Assembly (NCBI RefSeq): GCF_014127105.1
Contig: NZ_CP059902.1
Coordinates: forward strand, 1,459,001 to 1,523,000
Direction of reading: 5' to 3'
DNA: 64,000 bases
Origin: Devosia sp. MC521
Lineage (GTDB): Bacteria > Pseudomonadota > Alphaproteobacteria > Rhizobiales > Devosiaceae
The translations under genes were made by a program, and so were the position numbers. The stretch's first letter is position 1; each line of letters opens with the position of its first letter. Below the pieces are notes generated by a model that was not told the origin of the DNA, searched no databases, and worked only from the letters and a program-made list of their open reading frames with translations. Positions 10,080-37,491 of the stretch are shown in pieces.

Positions 10080-10196
10080 GGGGGCAGGGACCATCGTCCG
10101 CATCGGGATATGCCCCGTATAAAAATCCCCGCGCCCCGTACGCTTTCGCGTTGAAGCGAGATTGCGCGAGTTGCGGCTTTGTCCTAGAGCGAATGC

Positions 10197-11477: not shown

Positions 11478-11478
11478 G

Positions 11479-12543: not shown

Positions 12544-12624
12544 CAGCCCCCCGGTGTGCTGGCCTAATCCAGCATGGTTAAGTGAGTCGTGCGTAAGGAT
12601 ATTCTCACGCGGATGTGAGAAAGT

Positions 12625-12663
12625 AACGCTCCAAGATGTAGCAATGCTTAATCTTGGAGCGTT
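12625..12663 (-). terminator. Terminator hairpin of the helicase gene
   Basis: A perfect 13-bp stem (AACGCTCCAAGAT with ATCTTGGAGCGTT) and a 13-nt loop directly follow the helicase stop. The T tract on the minus side is short. Confidence 0.75.
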
Positions 12664-12669
12664 TAATGA

Positions 12670-14121
12670 TTATTGGGCAATGCGCGTCGGGCGCAGCAAG
12701 AACGCTGGGATTGGTCCGGCGTCGCCAAATGGCCCATTATTGTTCGGCGCTGCCACTGGTGCAGTGTCGTTATTGCGCTTGCGGCGTGCGTTGTCGGCGC
12801 GCGTTCTTTGCGGCTTAAGTGGTTCGTCCACGGTATTCGTTTCTACTTCTGTAGGCGACGGAGCCACAACATCGGACTTTTCAGCCTTAGCGACCTTGCG
12901 GGTGCGACCGCCACGACGGCCACGCGATGGCTTGGCTTCAGCGTCTTCAGCAGCATCGGGAGCCGCTTCAGTTGTGATTGCCTGGGCAGTCTTACTTGGC
13001 GCGAGCCATTCGATCTGCTTTTGGATCAGCTTTACGATCGCATCGAGGTGCTTTTCGTCTGCGGGGGCGACGAATGTGTAGGCAACACCAGAGCGACCAG
13101 CGCGACCCGTACGGCCGATACGGTGAACGTAATCCTCGGCGTGCACAGGCACGTCGAAGTTGTACACGTGGCTTACCGCTGGAATATCGAGACCACGTGC
13201 CGCGACGTCACTGGCAACCAGGAGCGTGAGCTTGTTGGTCTTGAAGGCATCCAGAGTTTCCATGCGGCTCTTCTGGTCCATGTCGCCATGCAGCGAACCA
13301 GCGGAGAAACCGTGGCGCTGAAGCGAGCGGGCGAGGGTAGCCACATCACGCTTGCGATTGCAGAAGATGATCGCATTGGTGAGGTTCTCCGCCGCGTTGA
13401 TCTGTTCGCGCAGAGCCGCGCGTTTCTGATCTGGGCGCGAGGATACCTTGACCAGCTTCTGATCAATCGTGTCGGCGGTCGAAGAGGTGCGCGAGACCTG
13501 AACGTGGACTGGGTCCTTGAGGAAACGCTTGGTGAGGCGCTCGATCTGTGGGTCCATCGTTGCCGAGAACAGCATGGTCTGGCGACGCGGCGGCAGGCGC
13601 GAACAAATCTTTTCGATATCGTCGATAAAGCCCATGTCGAGCATGCGGTCCGCTTCGTCGATGACGAGAACTTCCACGCCGGTCAGCAGGATCTTGCCGC
13701 GATCGAATTGGTCGAGCAGACGGCCAGGAGTAGCGATCAGCACGTCAACGCCGCGATCAAGCTTCTTGTTCTGCTCTTCAAACGATACGCCACCGATGAT
13801 CAGAGCCATCGAAAGACGGTGATTTTTGCCGTACTTCTCAAAGTTCTCGGCAACCTGCGCCGCGAGTTCGCGGGTCGGTTCGAGAATGAGTGTGCGGGGC
13901 ATACGAGCGCGGGCGCGGCCGTTTTCCAGCAGCGTCAGCATGGGCAATACAAAAGAGGCAGTCTTCCCGGTACCCGTCTGCGCGATACCAATAAGATCCT
14001 TCTTATTCAGAAGGTGTGGAATTGCCTGAGCCTGGATCTCGGTAGGCTTCGTGTAACCAGCGTCTGTGACAGCTTCGGTTACCTTGCTCGAAAGCCCAAG
14101 TCCGGAAAAGTCGTCGGTCAA
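12670..14121 (-). CDS. DEAD-box RNA helicase (RhlE-like)
   Basis: An ATP-dependent RNA helicase, likely in RNA turnover or ribosome assembly. All core motifs are present: Q motif region, AQTGTGKT, PTREL, DEAD, SAT, and HRIGRTGRAG, over the first 380 residues. The last 100 residues are basic and rich in R and K (for example RGRRGGRTRK), a typical RNA-binding tail. Length is 483 residues. A long structured leader lies upstream, as is common for autoregulated helicase genes. Confidence 0.93.
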   Translation of the reverse strand: MTDDFSGLGLSSKVTEAVTDAGYTKPTEIQAQAIPHLLNKKDLIGIAQTGTGKTASFVLPMLTLLENGRARARMPRTLILEPTRELAAQVAENFEKYGKNHRLSMALIIGGVSFEEQNKKLDRGVDVLIATPGRLLDQFDRGKILLTGVEVLVIDEADRMLDMGFIDDIEKICSRLPPRRQTMLFSATMDPQIERLTKRFLKDPVHVQVSRTSSTADTIDQKLVKVSSRPDQKRAALREQINAAENLTNAIIFCNRKRDVATLARSLQRHGFSAGSLHGDMDQKSRMETLDAFKTNKLTLLVASDVAARGLDIPAVSHVYNFDVPVHAEDYVHRIGRTGRAGRSGVAYTFVAPADEKHLDAIVKLIQKQIEWLAPSKTAQAITTEAAPDAAEDAEAKPSRGRRGGRTRKVAKAEKSDVVAPSPTEVETNTVDEPLKPQRTRADNARRKRNNDTAPVAAPNNNGPFGDAGPIPAFLLRPTRIAQ

Positions 14122-23228: not shown

Positions 23229-23666
<438 letters not shown>

Positions 23667-23736
23667 GTCCCCTTAGACCGAGCGCATCGCACCCGACTGA
23701 ATACAACCGTTTCCGCAAGACAGGGGAAAGACCCAA

Positions 23737-25146
23737 ATGACGACCGCAGCCGACATCATCCAGCGCATGAAAGACGAGGACATCAAGTACCTGGACGTGC
23801 GCTTTACCGACCTGCGCGGTAAGCTTCAGCACGTTACTATGGACGTGTCTGTTGTCGACGCCGACATGTTCGAAGACGGCGTGATGTTTGACGGTTCCTC
23901 GATTGCTGGCTGGAAGGCCATCAACGAGTCCGACATGGTGCTCATGCCAGATCCGGCGTCCGCTTACATCGACCCGTTCTTTGCTGCCAAGACCCTCGCA
24001 ATTAACTGCGACATTCTCGAGCCCGCAACCTACCAGCCATACAACCGCGACCCACGTTCGATCGCGAAGAAGGCTGAAGGTCTCGTCAAGTCGTCGGGTG
24101 TTGGTGACACCGTCGTTTTCGGTCCAGAACCAGAATTCTTCATCTTCGACGACGTGAAGTACTCGACCTCCACCTATAAGGTTGGCTTCCAGGTTGACGC
24201 GGCAGAACTGCCAACCAACAACGATGCAGACTTCGAAGGCGGCAACAACGGCCACCACATCGGCATCAAGAAGGGCTACTTCCCAGTTCCTCCGTTGGAC
24301 AACGCGCAGGACATGCGTGGTGAAATGCTCGAAGCCCTCGGCGAAATGGGCGTCATCATTGAAAAGCACCACCACGAAGTGGCATCGGCTCAGCACGAAC
24401 TTGGTCTGAAGTACAAGACCATGATCGCATCGGCTGACGACGTGCTGATCTACAAGTATGGGGTTCAGCAGGTTGCTAACTCCTACGGCAAGACTGCAAC
24501 CTTCCTGCCAAAGCCAGTCTTTGGCGACAATGGTTCGGGCATGCACTGCCACATGTCGATCTGGAAGGATGGCAAGCCACTCTTCGCTGGCGACCAGTAC
24601 GCTGGTCTCTCGATGGACTGCCTCTACTACATCGGCGGCGTCATCAAGCACGCGAAGGCAATCAACGCTTTCACCAACCCGACCACCAACTCCTACAAGC
24701 GTCTGGTTCCAGGCTTTGAAGCTCCAGTTCTGCTCGCTTACTCGGCTCGTAACCGTTCGGCTTCGTGCCGTATTCCATTCGGCCAGTCGCCGAAGGCAAA
24801 GCGCGTTGAAGTTCGCTTCCCAGATCCATTGGCGAACCCATACCTTGCCTACACCGCACTGCTGATGGCTGGTCTTGATGGTATCAAGAACAAGATCCAT
24901 CCAGGCGAGCCAATGGACAAGGATCTGTACGAACTGCCAAAGGACGAACTCAAGGAAATCCCGACCGTCGCCGGTTCGCTCCGCGAAGCTCTGGAAAGCC
25001 TCGACAAGAACCGTGAGTTCCTCAAGGTCGGCGGCGTGATGGATGACGATTTCATCGACGCTTACATCGAGCTCAAGATGGCTGAAGTGCTGCGTGTCGA
25101 AATGACCCCGCACCCAGTCGAATACGAAATGTACTACTCGGCCTAA
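23737..25146 (+). CDS. glnA: Glutamine synthetase type I
   Basis: Makes glutamine from glutamate, ammonia and ATP; a dodecamer of 469-residue subunits. The beta-grasp motif DGSS, ATP-binding region [12 protein letters not shown] and NRSASCRIP are all present, and Tyr398 in DLYELP matches the adenylylation site of GSI-beta. It forms an operon with glnB, so enzyme and regulator rise together under nitrogen limitation. A GGGGAAAG ribosome site precedes the ATG. Confidence 0.97.
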
Positions 25147-25162: not shown

Positions 25163-25190
25163 AAGGGGCCTTCGGGCCCCTTTTTCTTTT
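25163..25190 (+). terminator. Terminator of glnBA with TTCG tetraloop
   Basis: AAGGGGCC-TTCG-GGCCCCTT followed by TTTCTTTT. The tail touches the stop codon of the convergent PilZ gene. Confidence 0.93.
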
Positions 25191-25842
25191 ATAGGCTGGG
25201 AAATGCGCGGCGCATGGCGTGACGCCAATCCTTGGGCGCCTCAAGCGCCAATTGCGCGTCGCGTGTGGAATAGTGCTCTGTAAACTGCACAGCAAAGCCG
25301 ATGTCGAAGAGGCGCACGACCGCCCCCTCAAGCTGACCGATGGTGACGAGTTCCCCGATTGCCGGTTGGAACGGAGCCGATACCGCTGCCCCGCGACCGG
25401 AATAGTCGATGACGAGGCATGGCTGTGGCCACTCATCCTGTCCGCGGCAAATGATGGTGCGCGGGTTTTTCGGTAGCAGACGTTCGCTACTGCGGCGGTT
25501 GTTGGTTTCCGTCCACAGGGTTTCAGTGAAATTGTTGATGCGTTCGTTATGCTCCAATGTGCGCGCGCTGCTCATGAGCAAAGCCATCTCAAACCCATCT
25601 TCGAGGCGCCGTGTCACCGGGCCCTGCAGGGCACCAAAAGCGGCAAAGCGTGCCGTAACCATTTCACCCAATTGCGGAATAATCGGTGCGGCCACGCCCA
25701 GACTGGTCGTTGCGATCATACGTAACCGGCAAGCAAACAGGTTGAGGCCAGCGTGAGCAGGTCTCGCGCCAAGTGAATAGCGGCCTGAAACAGTGGTAAT
25801 GCCGTGTACGACGATAGACGCCTGCGGGGATAGCTCGGTCAC
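25189..25842 (-). CDS. PilZ domain protein (c-di-GMP receptor)
   Basis: A 217-residue cytoplasmic protein. The C-terminal half has both parts of the c-di-GMP site: RSSER (RxxxR, about residue 116) and DYSGRG (DxSxxG, about residue 144). The N-terminal half looks like a second, degenerate PilZ-like barrel (VSGRYSLGA and TTSLGV without the arginines). It may report c-di-GMP made by cyclases such as the one at 11479-12543. Output partner unknown. Confidence 0.8.
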   Translation of the reverse strand: MTELSPQASIVVHGITTVSGRYSLGARPAHAGLNLFACRLRMIATTSLGVAAPIIPQLGEMVTARFAAFGALQGPVTRRLEDGFEMALLMSSARTLEHNERINNFTETLWTETNNRRSSERLLPKNPRTIICRGQDEWPQPCLVIDYSGRGAAVSAPFQPAIGELVTIGQLEGAVVRLFDIGFAVQFTEHYSTRDAQLALEAPKDWRHAMRRAFPSL

Positions 25843-25858
25843 GTGGAACCCTCCAGTG

Positions 25859-25871
25859 TGTAGAATCTACA
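25859..25871. promoter_or_regulatory. 13-bp inverted repeat upstream of the PilZ gene
   Basis: TGTAGA-A-TCTACA, 17 bp before the PilZ start; a possible operator. Confidence 0.35.
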
Positions 25872-25985
25872 GCAAAACTGGCAAGCTGACCTTTAAACTC
25901 ACCGCTGAATTTTATGACCTGCCTTAGCTATTTAGAAAGCATAGGGGCGTGCCATATAAACATGACAATGAAGTTCAGGAATCTC

Positions 25986-26013
25986 TTGACCTGACCTTAA
26001 CATGAGTTTAGCA
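25986..26013 (+). promoter_or_regulatory. Possible promoter of the 26063-34890 operon
   Basis: TTGACC and TTAGCA are 16 bp apart, about 50 bp before the first gene. Confidence 0.35.
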
Positions 26014-26062
26014 GTCCGGTTAAGGGTGCTTGTAGCCCAGTTTACAAAACCGGATCTTCCAA

Positions 26063-27775
26063 ATGCGTCGTTCACTCCTTCGGGGTGCGAGTGCTGTTGC
26101 GCTCGCCCTATGCCTTGCCGCGCCTAGCTCTGCTCACGATGCGAGGCTCCATGCTAATCCTGAAGCTGGCAATGGCAGCCCTCACACGGCTGCGGGCATC
26201 CTCAGCACGGTCAACAATCAGGGTCCAAAGACTGCTGATAGCCTGACCATCGGCATTTGGAACACCGCCGCCAACATCACCACCTATACGATCGGCAACA
26301 GCTGGAACGATTGGGTGCTGTATCTGGCCCTCGATAAACTGCTCGAGCCATCGCCCTATATGTCCAAGGGCCGCTCGTGGCTGGCGACTGAAGTTGTGCA
26401 GGTGTCGGAAGACGCGCGCATCTGGGAAGCGGAAATCCGTCAAGGCGTAAAGTGGCACGACGGCACTGACATGACCGCCGAAGACGTCGTCTTCACCTAC
26501 AATCTTTACCTCAACGGCCCGGCAAACCGCTGGACTCACCACGTCTCTGACGTGCCACGCATCGAAACCATTGAGCTGGTTTCGCCCACCCGCGTCCGCT
26601 TTACCGCGCCGCGCCCCATGCCAAACTTCGATCTCGTGACCGCGCCCGAGCTGCCGATCATGCAGAAGAAGCAGTGGGAAGGCATCGAAGACCCGCGCAC
26701 CATGACCGATCCGGTCATTGGCACCGGCCCCTACAAGCTGGTCGAATACAAGGCCGACGAATTCTACCGCTTTGAAGCGCACGAAGAATTCTGGGGCGGC
26801 GCGCCAACGGTCAAGGAATTGACGCTGGTCATGATCAAGGACCCGCAGACGATATTTGCGGCCCTGAAGTCTGGCGAAATCGACGGTGCTGCCCGCGCTC
26901 TGCCGCCTGAAATGGTCGCGCAGTGGAAGGACGATCCCAATATCGAGATCGCGCAGGCGCCAACCCTTTGGGGCACCTGGATGCAGATGAACCTCAATGA
27001 TCCGGTGTTCAACAACCGCGATCTGCGCAATACCCTCTCGCTCGCGATCAATCCTGAAGAAATGGTCGAGCGCGTCATGCTCGGTCGCGCGCAGTCCGGC
27101 AAGCACGGTTGGCCGCACCTCGATAGCACCTGGACCAAGCCAGGTCTTGAAGTGCCATTCGATGCCGAAGCGGCCAAGGCTGGCTTTGAAACCCTTGGCT
27201 TTGTCGACGCCAATGGTGATGGCTATCGCGATCTGCCCGATGGCACGCCGTTCGATTGGCGCATCGTCGTCTCGACCAATCAGCCGCTCTATGTGCGTGC
27301 GGCCGAAGTCATGGTCGAGCAATTCGATGCCGTGGGCATCAAGACCCATGTTGAGGCCGTGGACGCTGCCACCTTCAACAGCCTGACCACCGATGGCAAT
27401 TACGAGTTCTCCATCTCCGAAATTACCCCGCACGGTCTGGCCGATCAGGACCAGTACATGCAGTTCTATTCGAGCCCGCAGATGAAGACGCTGCTCGACA
27501 GCGAACCAGAACGTCTGGCCCTCTACAATGAGTGGTGGGAAGCGGACAGCCGCGAAACACGTCAGGACGCCCATTTCAAGCTGCAGGAATATGAACTGAA
27601 ATACCCGAGCCGTTTCATGCTCTGGTACCCAGATGGTCTGTTTGCCTACAATTGGAAAGCCTACGACAACTACGCCTCTTCGTTCGGCTACGGCATCTTC
27701 CACAAATACTCCTTCTTGCCTGAAGCTGGCCGTATCGGCACCTCCGACTCCATCGATCAACTGATCGCGGAATAA
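26063..27775 (+). CDS. ABC transporter substrate-binding protein, peptide type (SBP_bac_5)
   Basis: A periplasmic binding protein of 570 residues with a Sec signal peptide (MRRSLLRGASAVALALCLAAPSSA, cut near residue 24). Family landmarks appear in normal order: IRQGVKWHDGTDMTAEDVVFTY near 140, VIGTGPYKLVEY near 222, and the C-terminal lobe. It binds the ligand for the downstream permeases. The family takes peptides, opines, sugars or metal chelates, so ligand cannot be read from sequence. A terminator-like hairpin follows at once. Confidence 0.9.
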   Translation: MRRSLLRGASAVALALCLAAPSSAHDARLHANPEAGNGSPHTAAGILSTVNNQGPKTADSLTIGIWNTAANITTYTIGNSWNDWVLYLALDKLLEPSPYMSKGRSWLATEVVQVSEDARIWEAEIRQGVKWHDGTDMTAEDVVFTYNLYLNGPANRWTHHVSDVPRIETIELVSPTRVRFTAPRPMPNFDLVTAPELPIMQKKQWEGIEDPRTMTDPVIGTGPYKLVEYKADEFYRFEAHEEFWGGAPTVKELTLVMIKDPQTIFAALKSGEIDGAARALPPEMVAQWKDDPNIEIAQAPTLWGTWMQMNLNDPVFNNRDLRNTLSLAINPEEMVERVMLGRAQSGKHGWPHLDSTWTKPGLEVPFDAEAAKAGFETLGFVDANGDGYRDLPDGTPFDWRIVVSTNQPLYVRAAEVMVEQFDAVGIKTHVEAVDAATFNSLTTDGNYEFSISEITPHGLADQDQYMQFYSSPQMKTLLDSEPERLALYNEWWEADSRETRQDAHFKLQEYELKYPSRFMLWYPDGLFAYNWKAYDNYASSFGYGIFHKYSFLPEAGRIGTSDSIDQLIAE

Positions 27776-27784
27776 GTCTGGCTC

Positions 27785-27815
27785 GCCCGCGCGGCTTCGG
27801 TCGCGCGGGCTTTTT
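27785..27815 (+). terminator. Hairpin with T5 between binding-protein and permease genes
   Basis: A 9-bp stem GCCCGCGCG/CGCGCGGGC with an 8-nt loop and five T. It ends 14 bp before the next ATG, so it probably terminates part of the transcripts and raises the binding-protein to permease ratio. Confidence 0.8.
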
Positions 27816-27828
27816 GGCGTTTCGGTCC

Positions 27829-28800
27829 ATGTATTATCTGCGCACGACACTGCAGTATCTGCTGACTTTGCTCGCGGCTCTCGCGGCGAACTTCTTCTTG
27901 CCCCGTTTGGCGCCCGGCGATCCCATCAACGCTCTGCTCGGCGCAGACGTCGTTGAGACCATGACCGAAGAGCAGGTGGCGCAGGTCGCGAGGGAACTTG
28001 GCATCCATGATGCCCTCCACGTGCAGTTCTGGAACTATCTCACCGGCATTTTCACCGGCGATTTCGGCATGTCGATCAAGCTGGGCATGCCCGTCTGGGA
28101 TGCCCTCATCCAGAAGCTCCCGTGGACGCTACTGCTGATGGGTTTTGCGCTGGTCATCTCGACTGTGCTCGGCACGGTTCTAGGCGTCATGTCCGCCTGG
28201 AAGCGCGGTGAAATTGCCGACATTGCAACCATGGGCGGCGTGCTTTTCGTCGGTTCACTGCCGCCGTTCTGGCTGGCGATGATGCTCATCATTCTCTTCT
28301 CGACGACCCTTGGTTGGCTGCCATCCTACGGTGCTTACAAAGTGGGCACGTCCTTCCCGAGCCTGAATTGGTTCCAAGGGGTGGGGCTGCGGTTGATTAT
28401 GCCTGTGCTGGCTCTCGCCATTGTCCAAACCACCTCCGTCCTCCTGATTGCCCGCTCCTCCATGCAGATGGCGCTTGATCAGGATTACATCATGTTCGCC
28501 CGCGCCAAGGGCGTGTCCGAGGGCAAGATCTTCTTCAAGCACGCGTTCCGCAATGCGCTGCTGCCACTCTACACCCACACCATGATGGGTCTTGGCGCCC
28601 TCATTGGCGGCTCGCTCATCATCGAGACCGTGTTCTCCTATCCCGGTCTCGGCGGTCTCATCGTTCAAGGCGTCAACTCGCGCGACTATCCGCTTTTGCA
28701 GGGCCTGTTCGTCATCACCACGATTTCGATCATCGCCGCGAACTTTGTCACCGACCTTCTCTATCCCCTGATTGACCCGCGCACGCGGCGGGCGGGTTAA
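27829..28800 (+). CDS. ABC permease, DppB type
   Basis: An inner-membrane subunit of 323 residues with an N-terminal helix, the PGDP motif (LAPGDPINALLG), a periplasmic segment and five further helices. The EAA-type cytoplasmic loop for ATPase contact is DYIMFARAKGVSEGKIFFKHAFRN (shown by ARAKGVSEGKI). The ATG at 27829 is chosen over a TTG in the hairpin tail. Partner of the fused protein that follows 4 bp later. Confidence 0.9.
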   Translation: MYYLRTTLQYLLTLLAALAANFFLPRLAPGDPINALLGADVVETMTEEQVAQVARELGIHDALHVQFWNYLTGIFTGDFGMSIKLGMPVWDALIQKLPWTLLLMGFALVISTVLGTVLGVMSAWKRGEIADIATMGGVLFVGSLPPFWLAMMLIILFSTTLGWLPSYGAYKVGTSFPSLNWFQGVGLRLIMPVLALAIVQTTSVLLIARSSMQMALDQDYIMFARAKGVSEGKIFFKHAFRNALLPLYTHTMMGLGALIGGSLIIETVFSYPGLGGLIVQGVNSRDYPLLQGLFVITTISIIAANFVTDLLYPLIDPRTRRAG

Positions 28801-28804
28801 GTCC

Positions 28805-31306
28805 ATGTCGACAGCACACTATTCCAATACCAGACGCGTCATCGCGCCGTTCTCGACGGCCACCGGCAAGGTGCAATGGCTGGGCATCACCATGCTGGGC
28901 ATCATTGTCCTGCTCGCGGTCATGGCGCCGCTTTTTGCGGGCTATCTGCCGCGCGCCCTAAGCTGCGCGCCATTCGAAACGCCGAGCGCCGCCCATATTC
29001 TGGGCTGTGACGACGCTGGCTACGACATCTGGTCCCAGCTGCTCTATGGCGCGCGCGTCTCTCTCATTGTCGGGCTCTCGGTTGCCACGGTCTCGACCGT
29101 GATTGCCACCGCCGTTGCCATTCTCGTTGGCTATCATGGCGGCTGGGTTGATCGCCTCGTCATGCGGTTCATCGACGTGGTGCAAGCCATGCCGTTCATG
29201 CCGCTGGTCATCGTTCTGGGCGTCTATTTCGGGGCCTCCATCCAGACACAGATCATCGTGATCGCGCTGGTCATGTGGGCGAGCCCGGTGCGTGAGCTGC
29301 GCGCGCAAATTTTGTCTATCCGTTCAGCCGGTTACGTCGAAGCGTCCATTGCTATGGGGGCAGGGGGCTGGTTCGTCGGTCTCAAGCATATCCTGCCAGA
29401 GATTGCGCCTGTCATTGTGCCGCAGTTTGTGCGCATCGCCCTTGCGGCGATCATGGTCGAAACCTCGCTGAGCTTTTTGGGCTTGGGCGATCCCCTGCAA
29501 AACTCTTGGGGGTCGATCCTCTTCCACGCCAATGCGCGCGCCGCTTTCCTCACCGGAACTTGGATCTATTGGATCTTGCCGCCCGGCATAGCCGTCTCGC
29601 TCACCGTTTTGGCTCTGGCCTTTATCGGCTTTGGCTATGACGCCTCGCTCGCGCCGCGCATCAAGGTCAAAAAGCAGGCCCTGCCTCTAGCGCCAGCTCA
29701 TGCTGCGCCGCAGTCTGGCGCGGCCCTGTCTGCTCAGGGATTGACCATTGTTTACGACACTGAGTTTGGCACCAACACCGCCGTAAAAGCCTGTGATCTG
29801 ACCCTTCATAAGGGTGAGCTTTTGGGCCTTGTCGGCGAGTCCGGTTCCGGCAAAACCACACTCTCGCTCGCCATCCTGCGTCTCCTGCGCCATCCGGCCC
29901 GTGTCACGCACGGCGCGGTCTGGCTTGGTGACGATGATCTGCTGGCAAAAGACGCCGAAGAGCTTCGTGCGCTGCGGGGGCGCAAGATCGCCCTTATCCC
30001 TCAGAGTGCCATGAACGCACTCAATCCCGTGCTCACCATTGGTGCGCAGATCGAGGAAGCTCTTGAGCGTGGCGATAAGCTGCCCAGCGACCAAAAATCC
30101 GCCAAGGTGAACGAGTGGCTGGGCAAGGTTGGCCTCCAAACCAAGCACGCCAACAGCTACGCCCATGCCCTCTCTGGCGGTATGCGTCAGCGTGCCGTCA
30201 TCGCTATTGCCCTGTGCAACACGCCCGAGGTGGTGATCGCCGATGAGCCGACCACTGGCCTTGATGTGCTGGTGCAGGAAGAGATCATGCAACTTCTGCT
30301 AAATCTCCGCCAAAGCCTTGATTTATCTATTCTTTTCGTCACTCATAATCTCCCCTTGATCGCGCGCCATGCCGATCGTTTGGCGGTTATGTATCAGGGC
30401 GAATTGGTCGATCTCGGCGCGCCAGAAAGCCTGCGCACGGCGGCTCTTCATGCTCATACGCGGGCGCTTTTTGACAACCTCCCAGAGATCGACGACCCAA
30501 AACTTTGGCCGCAGGGCGTGCCGAATGGCGATCCCGTCATTGCCTTTACCGGCGTGACGAAAACCTATTACCCAAATTCGGTTTTGGGCCTCAATCTCGG
30601 CGCACCGCACAAAGCGCTAAACGATGTGTCCTTCACCCTGCGTACCGGCGAAAAGCTTGGGCTGGTTGGGGGCAGTGGGGCGGGTAAATCGACCCTTGCC
30701 CGTTTGGTCATGGGCATGATCAAGCCCGATAGCGGCGCGATTGCCTATAACGGTGCTCCGCTTGGTGCTGGTCGTACCGCCCGTAAAACCATGGCGCGCG
30801 CCGTCCATATGGTGTTCCAGGACCCGTACCAGTCCATCCGCAATCGCATGTCCATTCGCGACATTATCGCCGAACCGCTGCGCATCCACGGGGAACGCGA
30901 CGATGGCGTTATCGCGCGCAAGGTTGCGGCAGCACTAGCGGCAGTACGTCTACCGTCCGATGGGCATTTCATGTCCCGTCGCCCGGTTCAGCTCTCTGGC
31001 GGACAACGCCAGCGTGTCGCCTTCGCCCGAGCATTGGTTTGTGACCCCAAGGTGATCATCGCCGACGAGCCAACCTCAATGCTTGATCAATCCGTGCGCA
31101 TGGAAATCGTGCAGTTGATGGAAGACCTTCGCCGCGAATACGGCACAGCGTTCCTCTTCATCACCCACGACATCGCCTTGGCACGCCACTTCTGCGACCG
31201 GCTCATAGTGTTGAGCGAAGGCCGTATCGTTGAGCACGGGGATGCGGACGCTGTCGTCCAAACCCCACAACATGACTACACGCGCAAGCTGATCGCAGCG
31301 GCCTGA
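28805..31306 (+). CDS. Fused ABC permease plus two ATPase domains (DppC-DppD-DppF type)
   Basis: One 833-residue chain holds three components that are normally separate. Residues 1-285 are a DppC-type permease with the EAA loop near SAGYVEASIAMGAGG. Residues 300-560 are a first ATPase (GESGSGKTT, LSGGMRQRAV, DEPTTGLD). Residues 580-833 are a second ATPase (GGSGAGKST, LSGGQRQRVAFARAL, DEPTSMLD). A linker rich in A and P follows the last membrane helix. All ATPase motifs are intact, so the fusion appears functional. The frame shows no break that would suggest a sequencing error. Confidence 0.9.
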   Translation: MSTAHYSNTRRVIAPFSTATGKVQWLGITMLGIIVLLAVMAPLFAGYLPRALSCAPFETPSAAHILGCDDAGYDIWSQLLYGARVSLIVGLSVATVSTVIATAVAILVGYHGGWVDRLVMRFIDVVQAMPFMPLVIVLGVYFGASIQTQIIVIALVMWASPVRELRAQILSIRSAGYVEASIAMGAGGWFVGLKHILPEIAPVIVPQFVRIALAAIMVETSLSFLGLGDPLQNSWGSILFHANARAAFLTGTWIYWILPPGIAVSLTVLALAFIGFGYDASLAPRIKVKKQALPLAPAHAAPQSGAALSAQGLTIVYDTEFGTNTAVKACDLTLHKGELLGLVGESGSGKTTLSLAILRLLRHPARVTHGAVWLGDDDLLAKDAEELRALRGRKIALIPQSAMNALNPVLTIGAQIEEALERGDKLPSDQKSAKVNEWLGKVGLQTKHANSYAHALSGGMRQRAVIAIALCNTPEVVIADEPTTGLDVLVQEEIMQLLLNLRQSLDLSILFVTHNLPLIARHADRLAVMYQGELVDLGAPESLRTAALHAHTRALFDNLPEIDDPKLWPQGVPNGDPVIAFTGVTKTYYPNSVLGLNLGAPHKALNDVSFTLRTGEKLGLVGGSGAGKSTLARLVMGMIKPDSGAIAYNGAPLGAGRTARKTMARAVHMVFQDPYQSIRNRMSIRDIIAEPLRIHGERDDGVIARKVAAALAAVRLPSDGHFMSRRPVQLSGGQRQRVAFARALVCDPKVIIADEPTSMLDQSVRMEIVQLMEDLRREYGTAFLFITHDIALARHFCDRLIVLSEGRIVEHGDADAVVQTPQHDYTRKLIAAA

Positions 31307-31323
31307 CGCACAGAAAGACAAAG

Positions 31324-31944
31324 ATGAGCGGACGTTTTCTCTATTTGCAGAATAGTTACGGTGGCCCCCCGCCTGCGCTTTTGCGTGTCGCAGACCACAC
31401 TCTTGATATCTACCAGCAGTACGACACAGACCGGCTCGATTGGTCAGTCTACGATGCAGTCATCATTTCCATGAGCGCCGATCAGCTTCACCTTGTGGAG
31501 ATTACGGCGAAGCTGCAGGCCTACCTCAATGGCGGCGGCACGCTGGTCATCAATGGTCACGTGGCGCGCCCGTTCTTGCCCGAATTGCAGCGCTACGAGC
31601 CGATGGAAAAGCGCGGCAAAGCCGAGCTGGTCATTCATCGCGAAACCGAGCACCCAATGTTTGCCTCCGTCACTGCCGAACAGCTCACCCTGCGCAAGGG
31701 CGTTGCTGGCTTTTATGGACGAGGCACCAATCCTGCTCCCGCAGGCGCGACAGTCATTCACTCGGTTGGCCCTGATCATGTAGCCGTCGATTGGCTCTAC
31801 GAGCGTCCCGAAGGCGGTCGCATCTTCGTCCACTCGGGCGTCGAGCTCTGGGCGGTTCTGATGCTGGAAGGTCCCGAGCAGGGCATACCTGTCATTCAAG
31901 CCATTTTCGATTGGTTGGCGCAAACCTCGCAGGTGGCAGCATGA
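31324..31944 (+). CDS. Unrecognised GATase/ThuA-like protein, family A copy 1
   Basis: 206 residues with no signal peptide or membrane segment. The first half alternates strand and helix in flavodoxin/GATase style and reaches GGGTLVINGHVARPF (about residues 74-88), as in ThuA-like and class I glutamine-amidotransferase-like proteins; no nucleophile cysteine is seen in it. The second half carries KGVAGFYGRGTNPAP, GPD, DW and GGRIFVHSG, all shared with the copy at 33150. Its stop overlaps the next start by 4 bp (ATGA). Function unknown; conserved glycine, histidine and aspartate residues suggest a ligand pocket. Confidence 0.7.
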   Translation: MSGRFLYLQNSYGGPPPALLRVADHTLDIYQQYDTDRLDWSVYDAVIISMSADQLHLVEITAKLQAYLNGGGTLVINGHVARPFLPELQRYEPMEKRGKAELVIHRETEHPMFASVTAEQLTLRKGVAGFYGRGTNPAPAGATVIHSVGPDHVAVDWLYERPEGGRIFVHSGVELWAVLMLEGPEQGIPVIQAIFDWLAQTSQVAA

Positions 31945-32594
31945 GCACAGTTTTGAAGCCTATTGTTGCCGTTATCGACGGCGGCCAGCACTATCATCAT
32001 GACGCGATCACCCGGGAGCCATTTGCCTCCTATTTCGACCACATCATCTATCTGCGCGATGTCGCCAAAACCGATCTCACCCAGTTCGATATCGTCATCA
32101 TTCCTTGCCGCACCAATGCCTATTATCTGGCGCCTCTGAGCCGTCAGTTCCAGGCCTTCATGCGCAATGGTGGCACCCTTGTTGCCATGGGCGAGACCTT
32201 CCCCAATACATGGCTGCCCAATATTGGCCTGCGCGAAATGCCGACCAACTTCTGGTGGTGGCTGACCCCCGGTGCCGATCTTGGCTTGCGCATGAGTGAT
32301 CCCGATCACGTGGTCTGCGATTACCTCAAAAAAGAAGACGTCACCTTCCATCTCCACGGCGCTTTCGAGCCGCTGCATGAAAACCAGAAATCTCTGGTCG
32401 AGACAGCCGAAGGTGAGTGCCAGATGTTCGAGGACGAGGTGTCCTATGCGCCAGGTCGCTTGATCGCCACGACGCTCGATCCATTCTTCCATCACGGCGC
32501 GTTCTTCATGCCTGCAACCACCCGCATGTTGGCCGGTATGTTGCCTTGGCTGATCGATACCGAAGCCGAGCGAAAGGCTGCTCTGGCCGAATGA
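31941..32594 (+). CDS. Unrecognised GATase/ThuA-like protein, family B copy 1
   Basis: 217 residues, cytoplasmic. A Rossmann-like start (PIVAVIDGGQHYHHD) leads to FDIVIIPCRTN, GGTLVAMGE and then the signature PTNFWWWLTPGADLG. Later come HLHGAF, LDPFFHHG and FMPATTRML. All of these recur in the copy at 33767. The Cys in IPCRT and several His are conserved between copies and may be catalytic or bind metal. The true start is the ATG overlapping the previous stop. Likely a partner of the preceding protein. Confidence 0.7.
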   Translation: MSTVLKPIVAVIDGGQHYHHDAITREPFASYFDHIIYLRDVAKTDLTQFDIVIIPCRTNAYYLAPLSRQFQAFMRNGGTLVAMGETFPNTWLPNIGLREMPTNFWWWLTPGADLGLRMSDPDHVVCDYLKKEDVTFHLHGAFEPLHENQKSLVETAEGECQMFEDEVSYAPGRLIATTLDPFFHHGAFFMPATTRMLAGMLPWLIDTEAERKAALAE

Positions 32595-33115
32595 GTACTG
32601 CAGATTTGGAGGCCGCTCCGGCGGCCGTTCCTCCGCGGCAGGCGTTCTTGAACGCCATGTCGCAATTCGCCAATTCGGTTTGCATCGTGGCCACGGACGG
32701 TTCCGCTGGCCGCGATGGCACCTGCGTTTCGTCCATGACATCAGTCGCCGCCGATGGCGACAAGCCGACACTCCTGATCTGTCTCAACGAAAAGAGCCGG
32801 GTGACGCCAAAACTACTCACCAATGGGCGGTTTAGCGTCAATCTCCTTACCGCGAGCGAGCAGGGGATTGCTGACCTCTTTGCCGGTCGCTGCGGCGGCG
32901 TTGCCGAGGGATGGTTTGACGATCCGCGCTGGATGCTGGGAGAGACCGGCTTGCCAGTCCTCAACCCAGCCCTCGCCAGCTTTGAGTGCTCGGTCTTCCA
33001 GACCAGTTTCGTGGGCACGCACCACATCATCATTGGCGCCGTTGAGGCGGTTTACACCACCCAGAGTGGCACACCGCTCATCCATTCGCAGCGCCTCTAT
33101 CGCTACCTCGCTTAG
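32591..33115 (+). CDS. Flavin reductase (FMN-binding split-barrel family)
   Basis: 174 residues of the HpaC/NtaB-like group, which use NAD(P)H to make reduced FMN or FAD for a partner monooxygenase. The pattern FANSVCIVATDG, the CVSSMTSVAADGDKPTLLICLN region and the late HHIIIGAVEAV segment are typical. The start overlaps the previous stop by 4 bp. No luciferase-like or other flavin monooxygenase is encoded nearby, so its reduced flavin must serve another operon product or a distant partner. Confidence 0.85.
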   Translation: MSTADLEAAPAAVPPRQAFLNAMSQFANSVCIVATDGSAGRDGTCVSSMTSVAADGDKPTLLICLNEKSRVTPKLLTNGRFSVNLLTASEQGIADLFAGRCGGVAEGWFDDPRWMLGETGLPVLNPALASFECSVFQTSFVGTHHIIIGAVEAVYTTQSGTPLIHSQRLYRYLA

Positions 33116-33149
33116 GCGAAAACCTGTACGTTGAAGGGTACACAGAACG

Positions 33150-33767
33150 ATGACTGAACCGACAAGCGGCAAACTGCTGCTGATCCATTCGCACTACGGC
33201 ACACCGCCGGGCCTATTTGATTTGGCGATGCAGCGTGGCGACGCCATTATCGTGCGCGAGAAAGACCTCACACCTGAGCATTTCGCTCAGGCCAAGGGCT
33301 TGATCACCACCAGCCACATCGACCAGTTGAACTTCCTTGCTCTACGCCCGCATCTTGAGGCTTTCCTCGCGCGTGGCGGCAATTGGTTCTTCAATGGCCA
33401 CATCCTGCGCGAACTGGTTGGCGGGCTCAAAATCTACCAGCCGATCATCAAAGCCAAGCGTGCTGATCTGGTGCTCACGCGCATTAACGAACACCCAATT
33501 TTCGAGGGCGTCGATCAGCCTTCTTTTGAAGAAAACAAGGGCGTCGCAGGCTTCTATGGTCGCGGCCACAACCCGCTTCCCGAAGGCGGTCTCGTGGTCA
33601 ATGGCATTGGCCCAGACAACTTGCCGATCGATTGGGAATGGAGCCTCCCCACCGGTGGTCGCATCTTCAGCCACGCTGGCAATGACATTGGTGGCATGGG
33701 CGGACCGAACCCGAACCACGCCCTTGTCGCCCCCCGCATCATCGCTTGGACCATGGGAGAACTCTAA
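33150..33767 (+). CDS. Unrecognised GATase/ThuA-like protein, family A copy 2
   Basis: 205 residues, homologous to the product of 31324-31944. Shared lines include GGNWFFNGHILRE, ADLVLTRINEHPIFEGV, KGVAGFYGRGHNPLPEG, GIGPD, DW and GGRIFSHAGND. The N-terminal part is more divergent. It lies 34 bp after the flavin reductase and its stop overlaps the next start (TAATG). Function unknown. Confidence 0.7.
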   Translation: MTEPTSGKLLLIHSHYGTPPGLFDLAMQRGDAIIVREKDLTPEHFAQAKGLITTSHIDQLNFLALRPHLEAFLARGGNWFFNGHILRELVGGLKIYQPIIKAKRADLVLTRINEHPIFEGVDQPSFEENKGVAGFYGRGHNPLPEGGLVVNGIGPDNLPIDWEWSLPTGGRIFSHAGNDIGGMGGPNPNHALVAPRIIAWTMGEL

Positions 33768-34384
33768 TGGCCATTCTCGCCATCAATCCCGGCACTTACT
33801 ACCACCTCGAAAGTTTTGAAGCGCCCCGTTACGCGCAGTATTTCGATCAGCTCGTGCGCCCCGAAGATCTGCCGAACGTCGACCTCAACGCCTTCAATGT
33901 CGTGCTGATCCCGTGCCGCACACCAGCCGACCGCATGGAGCCGCTCAAGCAGCAATTGCTCGATTATCTCGATAAGGGCGGCACCATCATCGCCACCGGC
34001 GAGAGCGACAGCGAACTCTTCCTGCCCAATATCAGGGTCACCCCACAGCCGACCAATTTCTGGTGGTGGCTCACCCCCGGCGCAGACCTTGGCGTGCGCA
34101 TCGCCAAGCCTGAGCACAGCCTCTTCCAATATCTCACCCAGAAGGACATCACCTGGCATTTGCACGGCTGGTTCGATGTTCCCGAAGGCGCTGAAGTGCT
34201 CGCTGTCAACGAAAGCGGCAAGCCCATTCTCTATATCGACGAAGTGACCACCAAGGGCCGGATGATCATCACCTCGCTCGATCCCTTCTACCACCACGGC
34301 AGCCACTTCATGCCTGCCACCACCCGCTTCCTCGACGGCTTCTTGCCCTGGATGCGCGCTGAACTCGATCGGGACTGCCTCTAA
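33767..34384 (+). CDS. Unrecognised GATase/ThuA-like protein, family B copy 2
   Basis: 205 residues, homologous to the product of 31941-32594, with the same order of signatures: FNVVLIPCRT, GGTIIATGE, PTNFWWWLTPGADLG, HLHGWF, LDPFYHHG and FMPATTRFL. The start ATG shares one base with the preceding stop; a start 21 bp upstream is less likely. Together with family A copy 2 it repeats the A-B cassette. Function unknown. Confidence 0.7.
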   Translation: MAILAINPGTYYHLESFEAPRYAQYFDQLVRPEDLPNVDLNAFNVVLIPCRTPADRMEPLKQQLLDYLDKGGTIIATGESDSELFLPNIRVTPQPTNFWWWLTPGADLGVRIAKPEHSLFQYLTQKDITWHLHGWFDVPEGAEVLAVNESGKPILYIDEVTTKGRMIITSLDPFYHHGSHFMPATTRFLDGFLPWMRAELDRDCL

Positions 34385-34890
34385 TGACTGCCACAACTCT
34401 CACCGTTCTCGAAAACGGCAAGCCACTGACCTACACCTATGCCGATCTCATGGCCTATCACGGTCACGGCTTTTCCGGCGGCGTCGCCCACGGGTTCAAG
34501 GTGCTGGAGCGCTCGCTGCCACTCTTGGCCGATGGAGCAATCCCTGAGCGCCGCGAAATCTCCTTCCGCACCTCGTTCGGTGGTCCGGGCGGTCGCGATG
34601 CTTTGGAAATGGTCACCCGTTGCCTGACCGAAAATCGCCTCTCGATTGAGCCCGATCTGGCGCAGACCGAGCGCGGCTACACCATGGCCCGCTACGTTTG
34701 GCTGGTGAGCTATCGCGGCACCACGGTCAGCGTTCGTATCCGCGAAGGCATTGTCCGGGACGAGTTCATCGCCTTGGGCAAAAAGGCCAATCGCACGGAC
34801 GACGAAAATGCGCGTCTCGAATATCTAAAAAGCGAAATGGCGGAGCGGATTTTATCCCTCCGCGCCACCGAAGTTTACGAGACCTTCTAA
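34384..34890 (+). CDS. FmdE-like protein without the usual cysteines
   Basis: 168 residues, last gene of the operon, start overlapping the previous stop by one base. YHGHGFSGGVAHGFK resembles the HGHxCPGxxxG motif of FmdE-like proteins, and RDALEMVTRCL resembles DAIQxxTGCT. The first motif cysteine is replaced by phenylalanine-serine. FmdE-like proteins bind zinc or take part in one-carbon or molybdenum enzyme systems. The family call is an inference from these two motifs; the role is unknown. Confidence 0.5.
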   Translation: MTATTLTVLENGKPLTYTYADLMAYHGHGFSGGVAHGFKVLERSLPLLADGAIPERREISFRTSFGGPGGRDALEMVTRCLTENRLSIEPDLAQTERGYTMARYVWLVSYRGTTVSVRIREGIVRDEFIALGKKANRTDDENARLEYLKSEMAERILSLRATEVYETF

Positions 34891-34916
34891 GCCTAGCCGA
34901 CCAACACGGTGATCAT

Positions 34917-34952
34917 CAGGTGCAGTTCGCTCAAACGAACTGCACCTGTTTT
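34917..34952. terminator. Terminator of the 26063-34890 operon
   Basis: A perfect 13-bp stem CAGGTGCAGTTCG/CGAACTGCACCTG, 6-nt loop and TTTT. The convergent CorC-type gene ends 3 bp beyond. Confidence 0.9.
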
Positions 34953-34954
34953 GC

Positions 34955-35965
34955 TTACGCGGTGTGCGGCAACACGCGTTTGAGAATGTCGGCCATGGTG
35001 ACGACACCCAGAATACGGTCTGCTGCGGTGACGATAGCGAGTTGCTCGCCGTCCTTACGCATACGGGCCAGAGCTTCGTAGACCGATGTGTGCTCTGGCA
35101 AAGCCAGAACGTCACGCGCGAATTTGTCGGCTGGCGCCGACCCACCCTCGAGGAGAGTGTCGCGAACGTGCACAACCTTGGGCCCGGATGCGCCCTCGTC
35201 GAGCAGCAAAATCCGCATGTGTCCCGAAGTTTCGGCAAGCTTGCGCACCTCGGCAACACTGGCTTTAGGGCCAACCGAGACGGGCTTGCGACCCGGAGCG
35301 ATCAAATGGCTCACGGAAGCACTACCCAGATCGATCAGGCTCGAGAGCTGTTGTTGCACTTCCGTTTCCAGCACGCCCACTTTCGCCGAATGTTCAACGA
35401 GTTGACGGATGGTCGCCGCGTCCTGCCCACCGATAGCTGTGCTTTCGACAGGCTCAACGCCTGAGGCACGGACGAGAGAGTTGGCAATGCGGTTGATCAC
35501 GCCGAGCACAGGGCGCAGCGGCCAGATGTAGCTTTCAGCGGCCAGACCAATTGCAACGGCCGCCTTTTCAGGATGCGCAATCGCCCAGGACTTTGGTGCC
35601 ATTTCGCCAACAACCAGATGCAGGAAGGTGACGAAGAACAGCGACAGCAGGAATGCCGCGCTATCAGCCAGCCAGAATGGAGCACCGGCATTGAGCAGGA
35701 TAGGGCCGAGCGCCGCGTCTACGGCTGGCTTGGTGATCGCACCCAATGCGAATGTGCACAGGGTAATCCCAAGCTGCGCGCCCGCAAGCATGAGGGTCAA
35801 GTCGTTCATGCCGCGCAGCGCTGCGCGGGCCGAAGCACTCTGCGGGGCCATTTCTTCGAGCTGACGACGACGTGCGCCGATCAGTGCAAATTCGATGATC
35901 ACGAAGAAGGCGCTGAGAACGATGAGAGCGATAGTCGCTAGAATGACGAATGTTGGGTCTTTCAT
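34955..35965 (-). CDS. CNNM/CorC-type membrane protein, copy 2
   Basis: A member of the CNNM/HlyC-CorC family linked to Mg2+ and Co2+ efflux. 336 residues: a DUF21 membrane domain with about four helices (first 190 residues), then a CBS pair (for example HVRDTLLEGG and ILGVVTMADILKR). The C-terminal transporter-associated domain is absent, unlike its neighbour. The ATG at 35965 has a GGAG at 8-nt spacing; ATG 35971 and GTG 35974 are alternatives. It follows the paralogue directly and probably forms a pair with it. Confidence 0.85.
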   Translation of the reverse strand: MKDPTFVILATIALIVLSAFFVIIEFALIGARRRQLEEMAPQSASARAALRGMNDLTLMLAGAQLGITLCTFALGAITKPAVDAALGPILLNAGAPFWLADSAAFLLSLFFVTFLHLVVGEMAPKSWAIAHPEKAAVAIGLAAESYIWPLRPVLGVINRIANSLVRASGVEPVESTAIGGQDAATIRQLVEHSAKVGVLETEVQQQLSSLIDLGSASVSHLIAPGRKPVSVGPKASVAEVRKLAETSGHMRILLLDEGASGPKVVHVRDTLLEGGSAPADKFARDVLALPEHTSVYEALARMRKDGEQLAIVTAADRILGVVTMADILKRVLPHTA

Positions 35966-35970
35966 GGCCA

Positions 35971-37332
35971 TCACTCCGCCTGCTCGATGAGCTGGACGCG
36001 CACTCTGGTGGGCACATGGCGCTCCACTTCGAGCACAGTCACAGACAGGCTACGGCTAATCAGAATACCCTCTGCGACTTCAGCTTGATCGGCAGGGAGC
36101 TGCACAACCACAATTTCATCAACAGTTGGCAGCTCACCTGTTTCCGCAATAAGCAGACCGGCAATGGTTTCGACGTCGCCTTTCTCAATCGGGCGACCAA
36201 TCGTGCGTTCGACTTCGTCGAGGTGCACATCGCCTTCCATGATCCAGATACCGTCGCCATCAAAGGTCACGGCATCTTCTTCATCGCTGTCGTGCTCATC
36301 AGTGATTTCGCCGACGATCTCCATGGCGATATCTTCGAGCGTCAAAACGCCAGCAAAGCCACCATATTCGTCGATGACACAAGCCAGTTGGTTATTGGTC
36401 CCAACGAGCTTATCGAAGGCGTCGGGCAGGTCCATCAATGTCGGTACAACCAGTGCAGGGCGCATGATGGTGGTCACCGAGGCGTTCGGGTCCGCGGTTT
36501 CCAGTTGCGGGAGCAGGTCCGACAGATGCACCACGCCAATTGGCGCTTCTTCATCGTCGACCACTGGATAGCGCGTATGCGCACGCGCCATCATCTCACG
36601 CACTTCAGCGATAGTCGTTTCCGGGCCGATCCAATCCACCTGAGAGCGTGGCACCATGGCGTGCTCGACGTCGCGCTCTGGGAAGTCGACAATACGGTCC
36701 ATCATCCAGGCCAGTTCGGCTGGCAGGTCGCCGCTGTTCCGAGAGTCCGCGATAATGCGTGGCAGATCCTCGCGCGAAGCGCTGACGTCGATGTCGTGAA
36801 CAGGCTCGATCCGCAGCAGCTTGAGCAGCACGTTCGCAGACATGTCGAAGAAGCTGATGATCCAGCCCATCGCCTTGAGATAGAACAGCGTCGACGTCGC
36901 CAGCATTTTTGCGAGCGGCTCTGCATTCGAGATGGCGAGGTTCTTTGGATAGAGTTCGCCAAAAATCATTTGCACGACAGTCGCGAAGAGCAGCGCCAGA
37001 ATGGTGCCGGTGGCAATACCGACTTCTGTGGGGATACCCACCCCGCCAAGCATGGTGCCGAGGGCACCGCCAACGAGTGGCTCAGCCACATAGCCAACCA
37101 TAAGGCCGGTTACAGTGATGCCCAGCTGCGCGCCGGAGAGCATGAAGCTCGTTTGCTTGGTGACAAGCAAGGCACGCGCAGCGGCTTTGTCGCCCTGTGC
37201 CGCTTGCGCCGCGAGCTTGGTGCGGTCGACGGCCATATAGGCAAATTCTTGAGCGACGAAATAACCGCCAACAGCGATGATCATAATGATGATCGCTATG
37301 CCGAGCAGCAGATTCAATATTGGTTCGATCAT
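35971..37332 (-). CDS. CNNM/CorC-type membrane protein, copy 1
   Basis: 453 residues with a DUF21 membrane domain (to about 200), a CBS pair (ATIAEVREMMARAHTRYPVV and LVGTNNQLACVIDEYGGFAG) and a CorC_HlyC C-terminal domain with DGDGIWIMEGDVHLDEVE. The ATG at 37332 follows an AGGTG site. A GTG 18 bp upstream is also in frame. First gene of a two-gene operon; 34 to 35 percent identity or so is expected between such paralogues but was not computed. Confidence 0.88.
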   Translation of the reverse strand: MIEPILNLLLGIAIIIMIIAVGGYFVAQEFAYMAVDRTKLAAQAAQGDKAAARALLVTKQTSFMLSGAQLGITVTGLMVGYVAEPLVGGALGTMLGGVGIPTEVGIATGTILALLFATVVQMIFGELYPKNLAISNAEPLAKMLATSTLFYLKAMGWIISFFDMSANVLLKLLRIEPVHDIDVSASREDLPRIIADSRNSGDLPAELAWMMDRIVDFPERDVEHAMVPRSQVDWIGPETTIAEVREMMARAHTRYPVVDDEEAPIGVVHLSDLLPQLETADPNASVTTIMRPALVVPTLMDLPDAFDKLVGTNNQLACVIDEYGGFAGVLTLEDIAMEIVGEITDEHDSDEEDAVTFDGDGIWIMEGDVHLDEVERTIGRPIEKGDVETIAGLLIAETGELPTVDEIVVVQLPADQAEVAEGILISRSLSVTVLEVERHVPTRVRVQLIEQAE

Positions 37333-37491
37333 TTGTGACACCTGATGCACGCTAAAAGAAGCGGCACATATTTCTCCTGTAAGGCTTCGTCAGTTGGATA
37401 TTGGGTGCTGTCATTCATAAGAACGACAGATGATGTCGATCTGTTCATTTCAGATCGCCTGATTGGGTTGATGGCACTGGCTGCGGTCGTT

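Follow-up and report, generated by a model that had tools for sequence, protein, structure and literature searches.

A nine-gene operon of Devosia sp. MC521 coupling an Opp/Nik-type importer to two GATase-like protein pairs: a candidate RirA-controlled iron-acquisition unit

Gene order and importer

Within the 64-kb stretch of Devosia sp. MC521 DNA analysed here (the window), nine consecutive plus-strand genes (26063-34890) raise the question of which compound their importer carries and what the proteins encoded behind it do with this compound. The original prediction described an operon led by an ABC importer of peptide type and continuing in the order A1-B1-flavin reductase-A2-B2-FmdE-like; this arrangement is real and every frame is intact. 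Overlaps of 4 and 1 bp had been described from position 31941 on, and four of them are found, namely A1/B1 (4 bp, 31941-31944), B1/flavin reductase (4 bp, 32591-32594), A2/B2 (1 bp, at 33767) and B2/FmdE-like (1 bp, at 34384), but the flavin reductase and A2 genes are separated by a 34-bp gap (33115 to 33150). The most likely start of B2 is the ATG at 33767.

The importer is encoded by a family 5 (Opp/Nik type) substrate-binding protein gene (gene 1, 26063-27775; PF00496, 252.7 bits), a DppB/NikB-type permease gene (gene 2, 27829-28800; PF00528) and gene 3 (28805-31306; PF00528 and two PF00005 stretches), whose product is a single 833 aa polypeptide fusing a permease to two ABC ATPase domains, with two Walker A and two LSGG motifs. 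The peptide-type assignment is thus borne out at the domain level, except that one permease and both ATPases form one protein.

The single terminator formerly placed at 34917-34952 corresponds to a plus-strand hairpin at 34917-34948, with a 13-pair stem and a T-rich tail, but it is not the only one, as a second plus-strand terminator-like hairpin (27785-27810; an 11-pair stem with 10 G-C pairs, followed by TTTTT) lies inside the operon, between genes 1 and 2. Terminator-like sites are commonplace (23 in the scan versus 11.9 +/- 3.6 in shuffles), and these two rank among the strongest. Read-through past gene 1 may therefore be partial. Conservation in other genomes indicates that the arrangement is not due to chance.

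The cytoplasmic proteins and their relatives

A1 (31324-31944), B1 (31941-32594), A2 (33150-33767) and B2 (33767-34384) match no family of Pfam or NCBIfam, B1 reaching Pfam only at E 0.25, and a search of the PDB with B by sequence alone gives no meaningful relative. Structure modelling nevertheless assigns to A and B a predicted class I GATase fold, as the original prediction had proposed, the match being made on a fused A-B relative. The catalytic cysteine of class I glutamine amidotransferases is absent from the nucleophile elbow: A1 and A2 contain no cysteine at all, and B1 and B2 have none beside the elbow Gly-Glu, a position set from the strands of the structure model. In B proteins, a His, an Asp and a Trp are strictly conserved. 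The A/B pair had been regarded as duplicated; two pairs are indeed present, but the deep split between them had been overlooked. In the B tree, B1 and B2 appear as old, separate lineages, that of B1 being Opp-associated and that of B2 being otherwise found mostly behind FecBCD importers, and a recent duplication of the pair is ruled out by this tree.

The last gene (34384-34890) encodes an FmdE-like protein, which scores 18.3 bits against PF02663, under the 22.9 cut-off, and has no meaningful PDB relative by sequence alone. Its predicted fold matches 2glz (E 2.2e-5) and 2gvi (8.3e-4), in agreement with its earlier designation. When compared by motif, rather than by residue alignment to 2glz, with the ligands given in PMC2954224 (His-x-His-x-Cys plus Cys), the window protein retains His-x-His and has no Cys at the motif, while in the FmdE-like family only the first His is kept and most 2glz metal ligands are lost. 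The flavin reductase (32591-33115; PF01613, 102.6 bits) has no monooxygenase partner among the nine genes according to Pfam and NCBIfam, as already noticed from the sequence.

Relatives were compared in the best 80 of 393 related loci. A adjoins or is fused to B in 78 of these 80, an FmdE-like gene is present in 67 and an ABC importer in 71, the importer being of the FecBCD (iron-complex) type in 65. The A-B fusions point to a heterodimer of the two proteins. The importer type thus changes between loci while A, B and the FmdE-like protein recur. This conservation does not extend to the flavin reductase, which is the least conserved part (2/80, both Devosia) and cannot be generally required by A/B; the earlier suggestion that flavin may serve A/B fails as a general need. 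TonB receptors adjoin several loci (L002, L004, L032, L038, L040, L175), and FmdE-like genes are also found without A/B. No published description of the A/B family was found in the literature and family libraries searched, and the gene set is conserved, so that neither of the two refutations named in the original prediction has come about.

Regulator sites upstream of the operon

The 220-bp gap preceding gene 1 (25843-26062) contains two plus-strand matches to TGA-N9-TCA, TGACCTTTAAACTCA (25887-25901) and TGACAATGAAGTTCA (25963-25977). This motif, in its AT-rich form, is the RirA motif published in PMC8822346. A third, imperfect RirA-type site, with one half altered, lies on the minus strand (25998-26022). 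With a scoring matrix built without Devosiaceae, the imperfect site is the best-scoring place of the 64-kb window and TGACAATGAAGTTCA the second best, both top places thus lying in the operon promoter gap; the matrix score of the window is reached by 3.4% of control windows. Furthermore, RirA is encoded in the genome (C1:139895-140281; NF008886, 215.7 bits for a cut-off of 193). These sites would constitute an iron-regulator signature, which the original prediction had overlooked.

The AT-rich motif is found upstream of 32/80 A/B operons versus 26/788 control windows, and, when counted per cluster, in 17 of 38 B clusters and 10 of 29 singleton clusters. The other 48 of the 80 operons are devoid of it; it occurs in 1/15 of the Rhizobium/Neorhizobium cluster and is absent from another Devosiaceae locus (L180). 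In Paenibacillus, a Fur-type box (18/19) lies just upstream of an FmdE-A-B-importer cluster, and in Cupriavidus the TonB receptor ORF is preceded, at a distance of about 0.3 kb, by another one (15/19); in neither case does any shuffle out of 300 score as well. No significant Fur box is found in Aliivibrio, Klebsiella, E. coli or three Methylocystis promoters. In a scan of 84 upstream stretches, whose operon starts were partly misplaced because of long ORF starts overlapping genes (the 32/80 and matrix figures use revised starts), the RirA-type pattern gives 34 matches versus 4.8 expected, a ModE-like pattern gives 2 versus 1.0, and the Zur, PhoB, NikR, NtrC, sigma-54, Irr (ICE), Mur and short Fur core patterns give none. 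Of these patterns, that of RirA is confirmed by PMC8822346.

A genome-wide count gives 9 places in 3.78 Mb, 2 of them in the operon promoter; as the pattern was shaped after the window sites had been seen, this count is not taken as evidence. The other seven places do not resemble clear iron genes, which argues against a large regulon with exactly that pattern. No riboswitch is detected at gathering scores in 7 related loci or in the window, where two tRNAs are the only matches, nor at E 0.1 within 25800-35000.

A possible iron-releasing module

What the computations show is the structure of the operon, the conserved A-B-FmdE-importer set, the exchange of importers, the regulator sites and the RirA gene. 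On this basis, we hold with moderate confidence that the operon is a RirA-repressed iron-acquisition unit, importing a ferric chelate from which A/B, the FmdE-like protein and reduced flavin might plausibly release the metal. RirA would repress the operon when iron is plentiful; the Opp/Nik-type importer would otherwise carry chelated iron into the cytoplasm, where the two A/B pairs and the FmdE-like protein would take it over, reduced flavin from the flavin reductase allowing Fe(III) to depart as Fe(II). We infer that iron is the cargo; more speculatively, A/B and the FmdE-like protein might capture the chelate and detach its metal, and a reductive step might take part. That the importer feeds a cytoplasmic A/B module, as first proposed, is supported by the conserved set of A, B, FmdE-like and importer genes, and iron release from a chelate suits the data at least as well as the proposed conversion of a small molecule. 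The iron reading is also favoured by the FecBCD importers and TonB receptors of related loci, by the metal-ion transporter neighbourhood of PF02663 genes and by the family match of the flavin reductase. Sulfonate-type importers among the relatives, the rarity of the flavin reductase, the majority of siteless operons, the promoters devoid of a significant Fur box, the altered half of the best-scoring site, the 3.4% of control windows with an equal matrix score and the loss of most 2glz metal ligands in the FmdE-like family count against it, as does the fact that the nine genes include neither a siderophore gene nor a TonB receptor, nor any known enzyme of iron release.

A nutrient pathway, in which A/B would hydrolyse or isomerise an organic anion (a sulfonate, a phosphonate or another chelating acid), is unlikely, though it is the rival that we take most seriously; iron control would then be secondary, either because the compound is taken up in complex with a metal or because iron is required for its use. 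It is suggested by Ssu/Nrt-type importers adjoining A/B or FmdE-like genes (L006, L088, L172, L177), by FecBCD-FmdE beside the C-P lyase genes phnGHIJKL, by the presence of sulfatase and Ssu-type genes in the vicinity of the third A/B pair of the Devosia sp. MC521 genome, and by the conserved His, Asp and Trp of B, which resemble an active or ligand site. Yet no catabolic or other further partner recurs (the commonest Pfam family appears 4 times in the 100 scanned of 160 listed neighbours), the 84 stretches contain no match to patterns of the Pho, Ntr or sigma-54 type, and the importer types are too varied for one compound.

Nickel, cobalt or another metal as the cargo is improbable. The substrate-binding protein is in part closest to nickel-binding proteins, but its 105.3-105.5 bits against the nickel (NikA) equivalogs of NCBIfam fall far under the cut-offs of 393 and 600; the fused ATPases score above the cut-offs of NikD and NikE, but this score sums two domains. 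HupE/UreJ_2 proteins (L001, L176; homologues at L035 and L051) and an EfaA/ZnuA-like importer beside an FmdE-like gene (L174) also speak for such a cargo, against which stand the RirA-type and Fur-type sites and the matchless NikR, Zur and Mur patterns. Still a little less probable, A/B and the FmdE-like protein could be regulatory or assembly subunits of the importers: this would suit exchangeable importers, the missing catalytic cysteine and the tight gene overlaps with importer genes, but not the strict conservation of His, Asp and Trp in B, the pairing of one A/B family with structurally unrelated importers, or the presence of FmdE-like proteins without A/B.

Under the iron-acquisition reading, the operon carries a testable hypothesis instead of a pathway without a name. 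For many imported chelates, we know of no established route by which cells free the iron. As a tentative and rather doubtful extension, A/B plus FmdE-like could form an undescribed, importer-independent cytoplasmic module extracting iron from imported ferric chelates, which would add a third route to those of the siderophore reductases and esterases, and moving whole or in part among FecBCD, Opp/Nik, Ssu/Nrt and Fbp importers in Alpha-, Beta- and Gammaproteobacteria, Bacillota and haloarchaea. If so, a protein set that stays constant while the importer changes, behind iron-regulator sites in Rhizobiales and Paenibacillus, would provide candidates for the iron-freeing step, and would assign a function to two unannotated families as well as to the FmdE-like group.

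ThuA-like/GATase1-like proteins (1t0b, 3rht, 3soz, 2gk3) share only 13-16% identity in the rows compared, and A/B pairing or fusion sets A/B apart from them; to our knowledge, they have no described role in metal uptake. The FmdE family PF02663 (2glz, 2gvi) is alike in predicted fold and in its neighbourhood, its genes mostly adjoining metal-ion transporter genes according to PMC2954224, but the window protein is under the Pfam cut-off and the metal-ligand motif is mostly lost in its family. RirA-controlled ferric-siderophore uptake operons of Rhizobiales (FecBCD/Fhu type) share RirA-type sites and an ABC importer with the window, and iron-complex type permeases with most A/B relatives; they differ by the Opp/Nik-type importer of the window and by A, B and FmdE-like proteins, absent from the systems described in the literature searched. 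Finally, all importer domains of NikABCDE/Opp systems are found in the operon, whose substrate-binding protein and permease are nevertheless under the NCBIfam cut-offs, and which differs from these systems by the fusion of permease and both ATPases and by its cytoplasmic A/B/FmdE partners.

Structure of the operon and its protein families

The nine plus-strand genes at 26063-34890 (window G000:C1:1459001-1523000, in a 3.78 Mb genome of a single contig) all have intact frames and are tightly spaced, as originally predicted. The terminator expected at the end of the operon is present too, but it is not the single one, a second terminator-like hairpin (27785-27810) standing between the binding-protein gene and the remaining genes. 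Gene 3 is a fusion of one permease domain and two ATPase domains. On the 5' side lie P-II and glutamine synthetase genes, named by inspection (23262-25146), and a divergent PilZ-domain gene (25189-25842) shares its promoter gap with the operon; on the 3' side, Pfam names two convergent CNNM/CBS genes (34955-37350).

In protein searches, Devosia provides the closest named relatives of the window proteins. The importer and the flavin reductase are named by Pfam and NCBIfam, and the last gene has an FmdE match below threshold. A1, B1, A2 and B2 have no convincing match in Pfam or NCBIfam (for B1, just a Pfam E of 0.25). Their relatives (71 for A1; 801 for B2, with the best 120 of 801 listed) are, where named among the matches listed, hypothetical proteins, with one exception whose name starts with 'Glutamine amidotransferase dom'.

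In the B tree, B1 falls, with a support of 0.97, in one group with loci L008/L009 and with L001, the Opp-type cluster of Paracoccaceae, and B2 is closest to L008/L009, followed by L010 and the FecBCD-associated L013, L012 and L011. As B1 and B2 group separately, at a distance of 1.84 substitutions per site vs 0.2-0.25 to their closest relatives, the operon looks as if two modules, Opp-A1-B1 and A2-B2-FmdE, had been joined with a flavin reductase. The Devosiaceae A2-B2-FmdE lineage is found behind FecBCD in L011, L012, L013, L018, L180 and L181, and behind an Opp-type importer in L009 and the window. The Devosia genome carries a third pair, arranged as FecB-FecCD-FecE-A3-B3 (C1 about 1142.7-1146.9 kb); no FmdE-like gene was found beside it, the whole genome having one FmdE-like match. 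Encoded around it (L104 3090-12929; C1 about 1137.1-1146.9 kb) are a ROK-type regulator-like protein, an importer of Ssu/Nrt type and a sulfatase-like protein.

Conservation of the neighbourhood and exchange of the importer

In a scan of one genome per species with a profile from nine B proteins, 451 stretches fitted a pattern, 393 of which encode a relative; the best 80 of these 393 loci, a set skewed toward B2 relatives and Rhizobiales, were analysed. Among them, 78/80 have A next to B or carry B in an ORF >1.2 kb, like that of A-B fusions. It had been asked whether importer, flavin reductase and FmdE-like genes stay with A/B across species: the importer does (71/80; FecCD-type permease in 65, OppB-type in 8, both in 2), as does the FmdE-like gene (67/80 at <=6 kb), but the flavin reductase does not (2/80, each Devosia). 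In five of the nine loci with no permease match (L008, L022, L036, L060, L062) B is <2.5 kb from the locus end, and in L008 the ATPase part is still visible. The pair is patchy, B being present in 26/397 genomes of the order and in 4/398 of a phylum draw, G000 included. FmdE-like genes occur in 21 of the same 397 genomes, 13 of them also with B (Fisher P 2e-12, kinship ignored), at <=0.9 kb from B in 12/13 and at 332 kb in one.

Fifteen plasmid regions, read from 32, 32 and 36 matched records, were combined with the genome loci. Importers beside A/B and/or FmdE-like genes are: (i) Opp/Nik in Paracoccaceae L001, Paenibacillus L003 (order FmdE-A-B-SBP-permease), L009, L034, L035 and L051, (ii) FecBCD in Methylocystis L002, Cupriavidus L004, Rhizobium L005, Aliivibrio L092, Shinella L094 and most of L011-L087, (iii) Ssu/Nrt, with A/B in Chelatococcus L006 and with FmdE-like genes only in the E. 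coli ED1a plasmid L088, L172 and L177, (iv) Fbp-like in the haloarchaeon Natribaculum (L093), with B and an unannotated gene that occupies the position of A, and (v) a ZnuA/EfaA-like metal importer beside FmdE-like in L174. In the last (6775-12721), A/B and Opp genes are divergent from the FmdE-like and metal importer genes. In L088, FmdE-like genes (8995-9510 and 11903-12430) flank one importer, and in L172 (6770-7822) two FmdE-like domains share one protein, both without A/B. A HupE/UreJ_2-domain membrane protein adjoins FmdE-like or A/B (L001 7182-8393, L176 5012-6439) and has homologues in L035 (8110-9384) and L051 (from 19820); such units may have in it an additional metal permease.

FecBCD-FmdE genes stand immediately 5' of C-P lyase genes in plasmids of Klebsiella, Proteus (record shown in part), Agrobacterium vitis and Labrenzia (L090 6032-13709, L089 292-5817, L091 5965-13832, L007 9812-14269), with phnGH in Labrenzia, phnGHIJKL in the longer records, a LysR gene, and a porin gene in L090. 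This cluster may be a phosphonate or metal-phosphonate uptake unit, a kind that had no match in the open literature searched.

Some ORFs are broken (L023 7572-8635; L055 7491-8377; L049 9296-10600; L128): FecCD is split in two in Rhizobium johnstonii 3841 and Marinicella sp. W31, R. tropici PTD1 has A and B unfused where its relatives have them fused, and B of G469 has one stop. Either these copies have decayed or their sequences contain errors. Some source titles may be wrong (L022, L035, L036, L071; matches H9, H29): loci under the titles Flavobacteriaceae, Sulfurovum, Gammaproteobacteria and Arenimonas MAG look rhizobial and may be mis-binned, and a Dysgonomonadaceae plasmid has a length (166348) identical to that of a Martelella plasmid.

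Putative iron-regulator sites

For RirA, 5'-TGA-(N9)-TCA-3' is reported as a predicted motif present in 5/10 ChIP-seq peaks (PMC8822346). Between -300 and +150 relative to the longest first ORF, TGA-N9-TCA occurs in 42/80 operons (best 80 of 393 loci) vs 150/788 control windows placed at other genes in these loci, and with >=6/9 central A/T in 32/80 vs 26/788 (P 5e-21, kinship ignored). After clustering of B at 80% identity, 17/38 clusters have an AT-rich site in at least one member, as do 10/29 singletons (P 2e-8). The aligned sites have the consensus aAaCTTGACAATAAaAaTCATGTTT. The AT-rich site is absent from 48/80 of these operons, including 14/15 of the Rhizobium/Neorhizobium cluster, and from the Devosiaceae L180, which counts against the iron reading.

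The Devosia genome has a RirA gene, and the promoter gap (25843-26062) contains TGACCTTTAAACTCA and TGACAATGAAGTTCA. With a matrix of 34 sites, seven Devosiaceae loci left out, the top two places of the 64 kb, scoring 17.1 and 16.4 bits, both fall inside the gap, ahead of a 14.2-bit place at 49835; the top one has one half altered, and its score is reached by 3.4% of control windows. At the third A/B pair the best score is 15.6 bits, within a longer stretch (900 bp). TGAG-N7-CTCA sites are found in two Rhizobiales genomes where FmdE-like adjoins other importers (L174, at 6792 and 8181, and L177). Fur-type boxes stand just 5' of the likely FmdE-like start in Paenibacillus (18/19) and ~0.3 kb 5' of a TonB receptor ORF in Cupriavidus (15/19), each equalled in 0/300 shuffles; seven further stretches (one each from Aliivibrio, Klebsiella and E. 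coli, three from Methylocystis, and that of the Paenibacillus SBP) gave nothing significant.

A proposed common step after import

On the best reading, a ferric chelate would be imported by the operon's importer and its iron then released in the cytoplasm, with the flavin reductase as local electron source. As the reductase is absent elsewhere, electrons would there come from another pool, or not be needed. That the importer changes so freely favours a shared step downstream of uptake over a single shared ligand.

No title or abstract found in the open literature, which leaves subscription journals largely outside and makes this a weak negative, connects importers of iron or siderophores to FmdE-like or GATase-like proteins. 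One paper was found with 'FmdE' and 'siderophore' together, on one-carbon metabolism of Pseudomonas putida (PMC10308882). In another study, PF02663 genes are reported mostly to adjoin metal-ion transporters (PMC2954224).
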